Assembly: GCA_025998755.1 (NCBI GenBank)
Contig: AP024674.1
Coordinates: 3,178,162-3,242,161, forward strand
Origin: Armatimonadota bacterium
GTDB lineage: Bacteria > Armatimonadota > UBA5829 > DSUL01
DNA length: 64,000 nt
Direction: 5' to 3'
Shown here: one piece after another, positions 23,191 through 26,813 of the stretch
Layout of the letters: the number at the start of each line of letters is the position of its first letter
Position numbering within the stretch: position 1 is the stretch's first letter
The notes under the pieces: model-generated
Seen by the model: the letters and a program-made list of their open reading frames with translations, nothing else
The model's database searches: none
Told to the model about the DNA's origin: nothing
Translations under genes and position numbers: made by a program

Positions 23191-23559
23191 TTAATCTGCG
23201 ACAGCTCTCCGGGGGCCAACGGCGGCAGGTTGGAAGCCCTCTCCGAGCGTGAGAGCCTTCGGGTCGGCCCCGCGGTCCAGCAGGACCGTGGCGGCGCGGG
23301 CCTGTCCGCTGTAGGCCGCCCAGTGCAGCGGGGTCCAATCTTTCCCCACCACCTCGTATGCACCCTGGTGCTCCCGGTCCCGCGCGTTTACCAGAGCGGC
23401 ATCCTTGTCCAGCAGCATACCGATGGCCGCCGTGTCCCCCTTTTTCGCAGCCTCGTGGATGGCGGCGGCCCGGATCTCCCCGGCAGCCGAAAGCGCCACC
23501 GCCAGAGTCACAGCTGCAGCCAGCGCCCCGTTCAGTCTGAATGTCAGTGATCTGTGCAT
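23191..23559 (-). CDS. Exported ankyrin-repeat protein
   Basis: 122 residues with a signal peptide (to about residue 32, SAAGEIRAAA) and about two ankyrin repeats: IHEAAKKGDTAAIGMLLDKD and DWTPLHWAAYSGQARAATVL followed by LLDRGAD. Ankyrin repeats mediate protein contacts; here they would be outside the cytoplasm. AAGGAGG precedes the ATG. It lies 26 bases downstream of the MtrB-like porin gene on the same strand, so it is probably the third gene of that operon. The repeat set is short and the C-terminal 15 residues (after LTLGEGFQPA) are not repeat-like, so the gene may be 3'-truncated. Confidence 0.8.
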   Translation of the reverse strand: MHRSLTFRLNGALAAAVTLAVALSAAGEIRAAAIHEAAKKGDTAAIGMLLDKDAALVNARDREHQGAYEVVGKDWTPLHWAAYSGQARAATVLLDRGADPKALTLGEGFQPAAVGPRRAVAD

Positions 23560-23585: not shown

Positions 23586-25826
23586 TTAGAACCGGTACTG
23601 CACGCGGCCGTAGAGTGTCTGCACGGTGTAGTCCCGGAACAGAGTCCTCATCAGCAGGGCTCCGTTGTAAGCTCCGGTTCCCGTAACCGGCACGTACGGC
23701 GCGCCGTCCTGGAAGTCACGGGTATCATAGGACTCCACGGCGTATCCCAGCGACACGGACAGGGCGCGGCTGGCCCGATAGCGCAGCCGAGCATCCACCA
23801 GGGTCAGTTTACTGGTATCCGCGTCCTCGAAATCCAGAACAGGGTTAGGCACGTTGTCGGCCAGCGGTCCTGCAAAGGAGATGCGCCCCTTGCTTCGTGA
23901 ATAGGACGCCGTCACCTGCAGGTCCAGCTTCTCAGGTCGTAGCGGGAAAGTCATCCCGGCCCCGAGCGTTGTCACCCGGTCTCGCCCCCGGGCGGTCCAG
24001 TTGTTGGGGGAACCCAAGCCTGTGTCCGTCACATACGGATCCCCTGCAGCTCCGGGGATCCACTGCCTTGCCGCCTGGTCGTTGGTATATCGCTCCCGGC
24101 TGGCGAACGCAAAGAATGTCGCTCCCCCCGGAGTGGTGTAGTCCACATCCAGGCTGATGTCGCTTTGCCTGCTGCGGGTCAGCCCGAACGGAGAATCGGG
24201 ATAAGAGTCCCTGCCCATCCCTAGGCTGGCTGTCACGCTCCAGAACTCCGAGGGATAGGCCGTGGCCAGAAGACGGAACAGGTTCCGGTTCCGGTTGGCC
24301 TCATCGTATTTCCGCAACCAGGGAAGCTGAGGTGGCTGAGGATTGCCCGGGAACGGAACAGTAAAGTCGTAGGACCCCCATCGCCGTCGGGAAAGCTCGT
24401 AACGCGCGTGCAGGTTCAGCCACTGCAGCGACCGGTGGTCGAACTCCAAGCGGTAAATGTCATCCGACGTCCTGGCAGCCTCGCGATGCTTGCGCTTCAC
24501 GACGTCGTGGTCGTAGCCCAGCGTCAGCTCTGTGCGACCGGCCAGACGATGCCGCCACTCCAGACCGGTTGTCGTCAGCCGGTGGCTGATCGGCTCGCTG
24601 CGGATCTCCCCCGCCATCCACCCGGCATCCGTGCGGACATATCCCGGAAAGGTATACACCGGCGTGCGGTTGTCGTAGTCGTACATGCGGTAGCGCGCCT
24701 GCAGGCTAGAGCGGGGGCTGACGTTTAGAGAGTAGCGCACATTGTAGAGTGTGGTGTCCACGCGTCCGTCCACCCTTGACACCGGGAGCGACGCCGGATT
24801 GGATGCATCCAGGGGAGTGGTGATGGCCGTGTTCGTGGTATAGGGCAGAAGCGGGTCGTTCTGCCGCATCTTTCCCCACGAAACTGTGGCGGCCAGTGTC
24901 CCCTTGGCCGGAAGCTGTGTGGCCGCTCCGGTGAGCGTGAAGCTGGTGAAGCGGTTGTCCGGGTACAGGTCCAGCAACCCTCTGGCCGGGCCTGCCTGAT
25001 AGGTGTTCAGGTAAGCGGTGGGTCCTGTGGAATCCACCAGCCGGAACGGGTTGTCCCAGGCCAGCTCGCCGATGTTATTGTCGAAGCGGGATGAATGGAA
25101 CGCGGCGCTCACATAGTTGCCTTTTAGGGCATACTCCGCCGAGATATTGACGTCGGTGGTGTCATAGTTGATGGGCTCCACCACCTCCACCGTGCTGCCG
25201 ATGCCAAACGACCCGAAGAATGGCCGCCCTCCGTCCCTTCGCTCCGTCTGCCACCCCAGATGCACTGTCACAGGGTCCGAGAGGATGAAGTCCATCCGCG
25301 TTCCCGTGGTCTTGCGGTTCAGCCAGATATCATATAACCTGCCGTCCGAAGCGAGCGCCGCAGTGACACGCGCCGCCAGATCCTGCGGCGAGGTGCTGGC
25401 CTGAAGCGTGGCGCGGATAGACGCCGGTATCGTCAGGTCGCCTGTGCCGATCCCGGAGTAAAGCGTGAGTGCGTCGAAGGCGAAGCGGTGAGGGATCTTG
25501 TCGTGGATGAGTTCCAGCCTGTACTCTCCCTGACGCCCCCCGCGGATGCCGATATACTGGTCGCTCTGCCCGATGCGGTCCCACCGGAACAGATAGTTCT
25601 TCCTTCCGTGATGGAAGATCTGCTCGAAGGATCCCGCCGGACCGGACGGGACGTCGCGATACTCCTGGAACCGCGCCGACTCCCTTTCACCGGAGACAGT
25701 CCTCCAGTAGATGTCCAGCGAAGTGTGGCGGCGCACATCGTCCGGAGTCTGGCCCGTCTGCGCCGCAAGCGGTCCGGCCCCGGCGGCCGTGCAAAGAATG
25801 CCGAAGGCAAGCAGGAGTTGTCTCAT
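23586..25826 (-). CDS. MtrB/PioB-family outer-membrane beta-barrel
   Basis: 746 residues from ATG 25826 (AAGGAG 9 bases upstream; signal peptide ending near GPLAAQTG). The rest is a long series of alternating amphipathic strands with short turns and long loops (for example LQARYRMYDYDNRTPVY, RTELTLGYDHDVVKRKHRE, LQVTASYSRSKGRISF) and ends in a terminal Phe (VQYRF), as outer-membrane barrels do. Length and partner match the MtrB/PioB/DmsF family, which encases a decaheme cytochrome to carry electrons across the outer membrane. The N-terminal CxxC seen in some MtrB proteins is absent. It is encoded 13 bases after the decaheme gene, and the pairing is the strongest evidence. Confidence 0.85.
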   Translation of the reverse strand: MRQLLLAFGILCTAAGAGPLAAQTGQTPDDVRRHTSLDIYWRTVSGERESARFQEYRDVPSGPAGSFEQIFHHGRKNYLFRWDRIGQSDQYIGIRGGRQGEYRLELIHDKIPHRFAFDALTLYSGIGTGDLTIPASIRATLQASTSPQDLAARVTAALASDGRLYDIWLNRKTTGTRMDFILSDPVTVHLGWQTERRDGGRPFFGSFGIGSTVEVVEPINYDTTDVNISAEYALKGNYVSAAFHSSRFDNNIGELAWDNPFRLVDSTGPTAYLNTYQAGPARGLLDLYPDNRFTSFTLTGAATQLPAKGTLAATVSWGKMRQNDPLLPYTTNTAITTPLDASNPASLPVSRVDGRVDTTLYNVRYSLNVSPRSSLQARYRMYDYDNRTPVYTFPGYVRTDAGWMAGEIRSEPISHRLTTTGLEWRHRLAGRTELTLGYDHDVVKRKHREAARTSDDIYRLEFDHRSLQWLNLHARYELSRRRWGSYDFTVPFPGNPQPPQLPWLRKYDEANRNRNLFRLLATAYPSEFWSVTASLGMGRDSYPDSPFGLTRSRQSDISLDVDYTTPGGATFFAFASRERYTNDQAARQWIPGAAGDPYVTDTGLGSPNNWTARGRDRVTTLGAGMTFPLRPEKLDLQVTASYSRSKGRISFAGPLADNVPNPVLDFEDADTSKLTLVDARLRYRASRALSVSLGYAVESYDTRDFQDGAPYVPVTGTGAYNGALLMRTLFRDYTVQTLYGRVQYRF

Positions 25827-25839
25827 CTCATGTAGCTCC

Positions 25840-26781
25840 TTACCTCGTATAGCTCTTCCCGGACGGATGGTTGCTGCCGTGCACCTGCACATGGCAGTTC
25901 TGGCAGGCCCGATAGAAAGCTCGGTTGTTCAATGCCACATAGACAGACTGCCCCGCCGCGTTGGACGGAATGGCATAAAGCAAACCCGGATGCCGCGGAT
26001 TTGAGTGGCAGGTCTGGCACAGGTAAGGGATCTTTGCCGTCAGCAGCTTCTCGTGCGAAGAGCCGTGCGGGCGATGGCAGTTGGTGCAGTCTTCCGTCAC
26101 CGGTGGATGCTGCCACAGGAAGGGACCACGCTTTTCTGCGTGACACTTGTAGCAGTTCTCGTTGATGGAGTTCGCCGCGATCAGCCCGTCCGTGGCTGTT
26201 CCGTGCGGGTTGTGGCAGTCGCTGCACTCCATCTTGCTTTCGCGCAGGGGATGGTGCGATGGCCGCTGCAGGTCGGCTTTGACATCCTTGTGGCAGCGGA
26301 CGCACAGCTCCGTGGCCGTGTCGGCGGTCAGGTTGCGTGGATGGCCTTTATGGACGCTGTGGCAGTCGCTGCAGGCGATCCCCCGCCGGTCGTGGGCGCT
26401 CCCGTGCCACAGAGCCATCTTCCCTTTGGTGTGGCAGGAGAGGCAGAGCTCGTTCTTCTGCTCGGCAGTGGTGCGTGCGGTGGGATCCAGGGCGACGATT
26501 CCCGCAACTCCCTTCCCGCCACCGGTCTTCACGTGCTCGGAGCCAGGACCGTGGCAGGACTCGCAGCCCTCCTTCGCGGCAGGGGTGCGGGGGTCGTCCT
26601 TCACCCCGTGGGTGCCCAGCTCGTAGCTTTCCACCTTGTCGGCGTGGCAGGCCTTACAGACCTCCGGGCCGACATAGGTAGGCTCCGCCGGGGCCTCCTG
26701 GGCAAGGTTCACGGACATTCCCGCGAACCCCGCCGCCAGACACGCCCCCAGCGACAGCGCGACAATCAACGCTTTCCTCAT
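25840..26781 (-). CDS. Periplasmic decaheme c-type cytochrome (MtrA/DmsE family)
   Basis: 313 residues with a signal peptide (about 1-28) and exactly ten CxxCH haem-binding motifs, at residues 42, 73, 113, 137, 160, 186, 210, 232, 255 and 293. The even spacing, extra distal histidines (for example HGSSHEK-like, HHPLRES) and the C-terminal CHVQVHGSNHPSG match DmsE/MtrA. In the family it forms a multihaem wire inserted into the MtrB barrel. It is first in an operon with the porin and an ankyrin protein. The start region carries a 17-bp tandem duplication giving two ATGs; only the one at 26781 is in frame. Confidence 0.95.
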   Translation of the reverse strand: MRKALIVALSLGACLAAGFAGMSVNLAQEAPAEPTYVGPEVCKACHADKVESYELGTHGVKDDPRTPAAKEGCESCHGPGSEHVKTGGGKGVAGIVALDPTARTTAEQKNELCLSCHTKGKMALWHGSAHDRRGIACSDCHSVHKGHPRNLTADTATELCVRCHKDVKADLQRPSHHPLRESKMECSDCHNPHGTATDGLIAANSINENCYKCHAEKRGPFLWQHPPVTEDCTNCHRPHGSSHEKLLTAKIPYLCQTCHSNPRHPGLLYAIPSNAAGQSVYVALNNRAFYRACQNCHVQVHGSNHPSGKSYTR

Positions 26782-26813
26782 GGTGCTCGAACCCTCATGG
26801 TGCTCGAACCCTC
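26776..26813 (-). repeat. 17-bp tandem duplication at the cytochrome start
   Basis: The unit cctcatggtgctcgaac occurs twice in direct tandem (26776-26792, 26793-26809) plus 4 bases. Each copy contains a leftward ATG with GAGGG about 10 bases ahead. The upstream ATG (26798) opens a 6-codon frame whose TGA overlaps the real ATG. Confidence 0.9.

Follow-up and report, generated by a model that had tools for sequence, protein, structure and literature searches.

Known conduits and the locus under study

Among the described outer-membrane electron conduits, those closest to the locus analyzed here are MtrAB of Shewanella (structure 6r2q), PioAB(C) of Rhodopseudomonas palustris TIE-1, MtoAB of Gallionellaceae, and the GSU2203/GSU2204 pair of Geobacter. 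PioAB provides the experimental precedent for a conduit that has neither MtrC nor an extracellular cytochrome (PMC6831781). A 2022 survey placed MtrCAB in three phyla (groups of Proteobacteria, Acidobacteria, and Gemmatimonadetes; PMC8805035), and a 2023 network study found homologs of PioA, PioB, and PioC to be widespread in Proteobacteria and Acidobacteria (PMC10654088); Armatimonadota appear in the text of neither. A 2026 metagenome paper reported iron-reduction genes in an Armatimonadota metagenome-assembled genome (MAG), apparently for outer-membrane cytochromes of the DFE type and not for MtrAB (PMC13055281), and our search of the literature, with subscription papers largely outside it, found no published MtrAB-type conduit in this phylum. 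The subject of the present analysis is a pair of adjacent genes, of the mtrA and mtrB type, in a 64-kb stretch of an Armatimonadota genome (G000:C1:3178162-3242161, hereafter "the window"). Sequence comparisons and structure models indicate that the pair very probably constitutes one operon encoding an electron conduit across the outer membrane, like MtrAB, MtoAB, and PioAB. The protein families and the two-part layout are already known; the phylum is new. The features of the locus, in window coordinates, are as follows.

25840-26781, minus strand: mtrA-type (DmsE family) decahaem c-type cytochrome gene; 313 amino acids (aa), 10 CxxCH motifs, predicted Sec-type signal peptide
23586-25826, minus strand: mtrB/pioB-type outer-membrane barrel gene; 746 aa, 26 predicted strands, C-terminal Phe
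25827-25839, minus strand: intergenic gap between mtrA and mtrB; 13 bases
26779-26812, minus strand: 17-bp tandem duplication (CATGGTGCTCGAACCCT x2) spanning the mtrA start codon, read from the sequence

The pair resembles Shewanella MtrAB in combining a decahaem cytochrome with a likely bis-histidine (bis-His) ligand pattern and a predicted 26-strand barrel, but it occurs without MtrC and in another phylum, and the only Cys of its barrel is located in the signal peptide. With PioAB(C) it shares the two-part build without an extracellular cytochrome, whereas the window cytochrome lacks the N-terminal extension of about 200 aa (its first CxxCH is at residue 42) and the genome lacks the PioC high-potential iron-sulfur protein (HiPIP), as the PF01355 profile has no match in it; on these two grounds membership in PioABC was rejected. 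The Gallionellaceae systems (MtoAB with CymA or MtoC) are similar in that their MtrAB homologs usually come without MtrC and that a CbcL/MtoC-type quinone partner is present in the genome, but here the partner genes are not clustered with the pair and no CymA gene lies beside it. The Geobacter pair likewise consists of a decahaem protein and a barrel, and both window proteins give sub-threshold matches to its families (267.6 against a cut-off of 325 for NF041028, 59.9 against 350 for NF041027), for which reason membership was rejected; in addition, the window barrel contains no CxxCH. A MtrCAB system was rejected, as neither TIGR03507 nor the inventory of haem motifs revealed a surface decahaem of the MtrC/OmcA type, and DmsEFAB was rejected, as the operon includes no molybdoenzyme genes and the immediate neighbors were identified as something else.

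Identity and predicted structure of the two proteins

A reading of the window from its sequence alone had noted an exported 313-residue protein with exactly ten CxxCH motifs and the C-terminal sequence VQVHGSNHPSGKSYTR, followed after 13 bases by a 746-residue open reading frame (ORF) ending in Phe, and had proposed that they are of the MtrA/DmsE and MtrB type. Both ORFs and the spacing are present as described, the last residues of the longer ORF being VQYRF. The cytochrome scores 283.7 bits against TIGR03508 (DmsE family; curated cut-off 192.2), with the entire profile covered (1-258 of 258), and its CxxCH motifs begin at residues 42, 73, 113, 137, 160, 186, 210, 232, 255, and 293. Its best match among all sequences in the PDB is chain A of 6r2q (E 2e-72); this chain is named cystathionine beta-synthase there, apparently a mislabelling in an entry that describes the Mtr complex. 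A model calculated with AlphaFold2, a method that does not include haems, has a predicted local distance difference test (pLDDT) score of 76 and matches 6r2q_A in a Foldseek search (E 2e-16, template modelling (TM) scores 0.64/0.74, 42% identity in the structural alignment), while no other solved structure was found below E 0.001. All ten CxxCH histidines align with histidines of 6r2q_A and are conserved in the aligned set. Ten further histidines (58, 83, 130, 144, 177, 193, 225, 239, 264, and 301) also align with histidines of 6r2q_A, and seven of them are present in at least 37 of 39 homologs; this coincidence and the conservation make bis-His ligation of all ten haems likely. The N-terminus carries a predicted export signal, and the protein would be loaded with haem after export.

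The barrel passes the cut-offs of both MtrB/PioB profiles, on which the sequence-only reading had let its proposal stand or fall, with 345.2 bits for PF11854 (cut-off 23) and 269.3 bits for TIGR03509 (cut-off 240.05). With TIGR03508, TIGR03509, and PF11854 scores above their cut-offs, the identities of the two genes are far from chance. The best match of the barrel among PDB sequences is 6r2q chain B (E 2e-17). Its AlphaFold2 model, based on an alignment of 34 barrels, has a pLDDT of 84, a predicted TM score of 0.80, and 26 strands (counted as long DSSP strands), the number reported for MtrB (PMC7198977). The top Foldseek match is 6r2q_B (E 2e-38, TM 0.78/0.89, 19% identity), followed by a TonB-type receptor (E 8e-9).

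Operon structure and neighborhood

The two genes form an operon; mtrB has an AAGGAG ribosome-binding site that overlaps with the stop codon of mtrA, and translational coupling is likely. The longest mechanically called ORF of the barrel starts at 25892 and encodes 768 aa, i.e. 22 residues more than the form used here; we preferred the start at 25826 because it is preceded by this ribosome-binding site. At the start of mtrA, the 17-bp duplication adds an upstream ATG, which is out of frame. A scan for promoters and terminators yielded nothing exceeding chance.

The sequence-only reading had also drawn attention to a partial complex I cluster next to the pair. Genes nuoA, E, F, H, J, K, L, M, and N are indeed nearby, separated from the pair by a gene for a GDSL hydrolase and by a short ORF with ankyrin repeats, but the arrangement was not seen at the examined loci of relatives; it was given no functional weight, and a functional link between the pair and complex I was rejected. 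PmbA/TldD-type genes are also among the neighbors. The ankyrin-repeat ORF (23191-23559, minus strand, 122 aa) lies directly behind mtrB and may be a truncated gene; beyond it comes a stretch in which a motif like ttctccccctgtggcgggagaagg recurs.

Absence of MtrC and inventory of multihaem proteins

The host genome (G000) is a single contig of 3.29 Mb, 98.95% complete. TIGR03507 finds no MtrC/OmcA in it above the cut-off (best E 0.2), and a non-exhaustive search with PF22113, the MtrC/MtrF domain, matched only other multihaem proteins. The window barrel is the only MtrB found in the genome. In order to list the multihaem proteins, we scanned both strands of the genome for the codon pattern of CxxCH and added two clusters from family searches; a DNA pattern for paired haems with one fixed spacing gave no match. 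The inventory comprises:

window: decahaem cytochrome; 10 CxxCH
333 kb (L019:7077-8396): octahaem cytochrome resembling hydroxylamine oxidoreductase (HAO)/hydrazine dehydrogenase (HDH) (PF13447); 8 CxxCH
1099-1101 kb (L017:7226-9081): NrfH and NrfA-like protein; 4+4 CxxCH
1559 kb: ActA-like subunit; 5 CxxCH
2334 kb: 7-haem protein; 7 CxxCH
2652-2656 kb: CbcL-like protein and NapC-type protein; 10 and 20 CxxCH

By motif counts, the final section of the genome holds about 26 CxxCH on the forward and 8 on the reverse strand beyond those listed, which is close to the chance level of about 20 and 10 in the control. One further small multihaem gene may thus exist in the genome, but scarcely any space is left for a further large cytochrome. 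On both profile and haem-motif evidence, MtrC is absent from this genome. The octahaem protein at 333 kb scores far below the HDH cut-off and stands alone between unrelated genes.

Candidate inner-membrane partners

The sequence-only reading had seen neither a surface cytochrome nor an inner-membrane quinol dehydrogenase of the CymA type. For MtrC/OmcA this extends to the whole genome, whereas the absence of CymA holds only within the window, as CbcL/MtoC-like, NapC-type, and NrfH candidates are encoded elsewhere. A 742-aa protein at 2652.2-2654.4 kb has ten CxxCH in its N-terminal half and a C-terminal half similar to cytochrome b561 and the formate dehydrogenase gamma subunit (HydC/FdnI-like). 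Such a fusion of a multihaem half with a cytochrome b half has been described for CbcL/MtrH/MtoC, a family of quinone partners (PMC6295460); the protein differs from these in having ten CxxCH and an adjoining 20-haem gene of the NapC type. The latter starts four bases before the end of the CbcL/MtoC-like gene and encodes a 493-aa NapC/NirT-domain protein with one N-terminal membrane segment and twenty CxxCH; together the two genes occupy 2652.2-2655.9 kb (L016:8208-11914). NrfH, which scores above its family cut-off, is encoded together with the NrfA-like protein. Genes for alternative complex III and an oxidase are located at 1551-1564 kb (L031:1180-14260), followed by a second set of the complex I type (nuoH, I, J-like); the oxidase and alternative complex III names come from recognition of the sequences, except for that of the ActA/QrcA-type subunit.

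Distribution and evolutionary origin

The assignment of the organism to Armatimonadota is borne out by a contig of a same-class genome (G020) that is identical to JACPPP010000353.1, an Armatimonadetes MAG. PF11854 is above the cut-off in 6 of 61 relatives, and TIGR03508 matches proteins in 103 of 291 genomes of the phylum at E<=1e-10, exceeding the family cut-off in 34. The highest score in the phylum belongs to the window cytochrome and the next to that of a family relative (G003), which is 56% identical to it (alignment A3) and whose gene likewise precedes an mtrB, which is split over contig ends. In a tree of 110 rows these two proteins group with proteins of Schekmanbacteria and Nitrospirota, within a clade of 37 rows (support 96) that also holds Shewanella MtrA, while other Armatimonadota decahaems fall into separate clades. 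The approximately unbiased (AU) test rejected a grouping of all Armatimonadota decahaems (p=1.9e-10). Horizontal transfer is the simplest reading of the tree placement and the AU rejections, and within this family the pair was most likely acquired horizontally. This reading is tempered by two points: the narrower test, in which the window pair was grouped with its class relatives, gave a weaker rejection (p=0.018), and the tree comes from a quick search with single-branch support values (SH-aLRT, the Shimodaira-Hasegawa-like approximate likelihood ratio test).

At 33 loci of the clade, from more than ten phyla, mtrA and mtrB are adjacent with a short gap, mostly of 6-41 bases, and 17 of the 18 such loci that have 2 kb or more of flanking sequence on each side contain no other gene with at least six haem motifs. 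Two-gene operons without MtrC are the rule in the MtrA/PioA-type clade.

Several unusual records were encountered among the loci collected. L099 (CALQCC020000007.1), a MAG titled Bordetella parapertussis, encodes a decahaem protein that groups tightly with Bryobacterales (Acidobacteriota), and is probably mislabelled. A Planctomycetota ORF (L107:5194-7125) encodes 643 aa with 22 CxxCH and a DmsE-like domain inside, and in L139 (G043) two monohaem cytochrome c domains precede a DmsE-like multihaem domain in one ORF with 11 CxxCH.

Cytochrome-barrel fusions in the phylum

Six Armatimonadota genomes, belonging to three other families, have a single open frame for both a DmsE/GSU2203-like decahaem domain and a MtrB/GSU2204-like barrel. 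Five of these fusions are complete, with 973-1032 aa, a C-terminal Phe, and an additional CxxCH in the barrel portion:

L160:3793-6891, L161:5754-8675, L162:5346-8273, L163:4324-7329, L164:3851-6778: complete fusions
L133: incomplete fusion, cut by the contig end

The existence of both parts in one polypeptide supports a physical association of cytochrome and barrel in the superfamily. In G034 the fusion gene comes after hemA, and behind it follow one unnamed gene, then a gene for a 7-haem protein, and ccsB; the L163 fusion lies by hemA, a 7-haem gene, and ccsB, and G242 has a 7-haem-like gene and ccsB arranged as in G034. No paper on a cytochrome-barrel fusion turned up in our literature search, with the same coverage of subscription papers as above.

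Proposed mechanism and alternatives

According to the mechanism we propose, the decahaem protein would be exported, furnished with ten bis-His haems, and enclosed by the barrel of 26 strands through which it threads, forming an insulated wire from the periplasm to the cell surface. Since the genome encodes no MtrC, the outermost haem of the cytochrome would most likely be in direct contact with an extracellular partner, an arrangement already proposed for PioAB. For the inner side, the domains point to the CbcL/MtoC-like ten-haem cytochrome b, together with the 20-haem NapC-type protein encoded next to it, as the likeliest partners; these two could pass electrons to or from the quinone pool and span the periplasm. 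As to the use of the conduit, we lean slightly, and hold the view weakly, toward the discharge of respiratory electrons, under shortage of oxygen, to an acceptor outside the cell, because the candidate partners are of the quinol-dehydrogenase type and the setting is respiratory; respiration of metals is one possibility. The wire is probably reversible.

The same conduit may instead run inward in the manner of MtoAB and PioAB, delivering electrons taken from Fe(II) minerals or a different donor outside the cell to the quinone pool or to the alternative complex III/oxidase chain. This is the main alternative, though a rather unlikely one. It is in keeping with the lack of MtrC, a trait shared by PioAB and the majority of MtoAB systems (PMC6831781), with the oxidase and alternative complex III genes, and with the occurrence of CbcL/MtoC homologs in Fe(II) oxidizers (PMC6295460); the organism, however, has neither the PioC-type HiPIP (PF01355) nor the PioA extension of about 200 aa, and no CymA gene adjoins the pair. 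FeGenie assigns MtrAB without MtrC to probable iron reduction; its category for MtoAB is probable oxidation (PMC7005843). A conduit of the DmsEF kind, passing electrons to a surface molybdoenzyme for the reduction of a soluble acceptor (dimethyl sulfoxide or iodate, for example), is improbable: the NCBI family is named "DmsE family" and Shewanella DmsEF is homologous to MtrAB (PMC8805035), but this name spans the whole MtrA-type family, and the neighbors of the pair (ankyrin ORF, GDSL hydrolase, complex I, PmbA/TldD-type) include no molybdopterin reductase gene. It is least probable of all, and very much so, that the decahaem protein serves only as a periplasmic electron store beside an ordinary porin. 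A part of PioA is soluble and free in the periplasm (PMC6831781), but the two-gene operon is conserved across phyla, the folds match both chains of one complex, the barrel family is defined by its decahaem partner, and natural fusions of the two occur in the phylum.

Several points weigh against the favored explanation. Sequence does not distinguish MtrA from MtoA, and either may work in both directions, so that the direction of flow cannot be read from it (PMC10734462). The CbcL-like/20-haem locus lies 550 kb from the pair, and a genome of the same genus (G001, 69% complete) has the 20-haem gene (92% identity), with MtrB and the decahaem not detected in it. The organism also possesses the oxidase and alternative complex III genes and NrfHA, and hence would not depend on the pair. 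With these reservations, the conduit may be placed in a complete chain that lacks a surface cytochrome and runs between the quinone pool, the CbcL/MtoC-like cytochrome b, a 20-haem periplasmic wire, a bare MtrAB, and an extracellular partner, with a horizontally acquired conduit operating in an oxidase-bearing member of Armatimonadota, a phylum in which one-piece fusions exist. We offer this chain as a tentative scheme, doubtful as a whole.

Implications

With this pair, the canonical MtrAB-type conduit would be extended to Armatimonadota, a phylum most of whose members are uncultured. The one-contig genome makes it a clean case without MtrC, in which the possible partners can be counted and the role of MtrAB on its own becomes testable, and the natural fusions in the phylum are useful for testing how cytochrome and barrel fit together.

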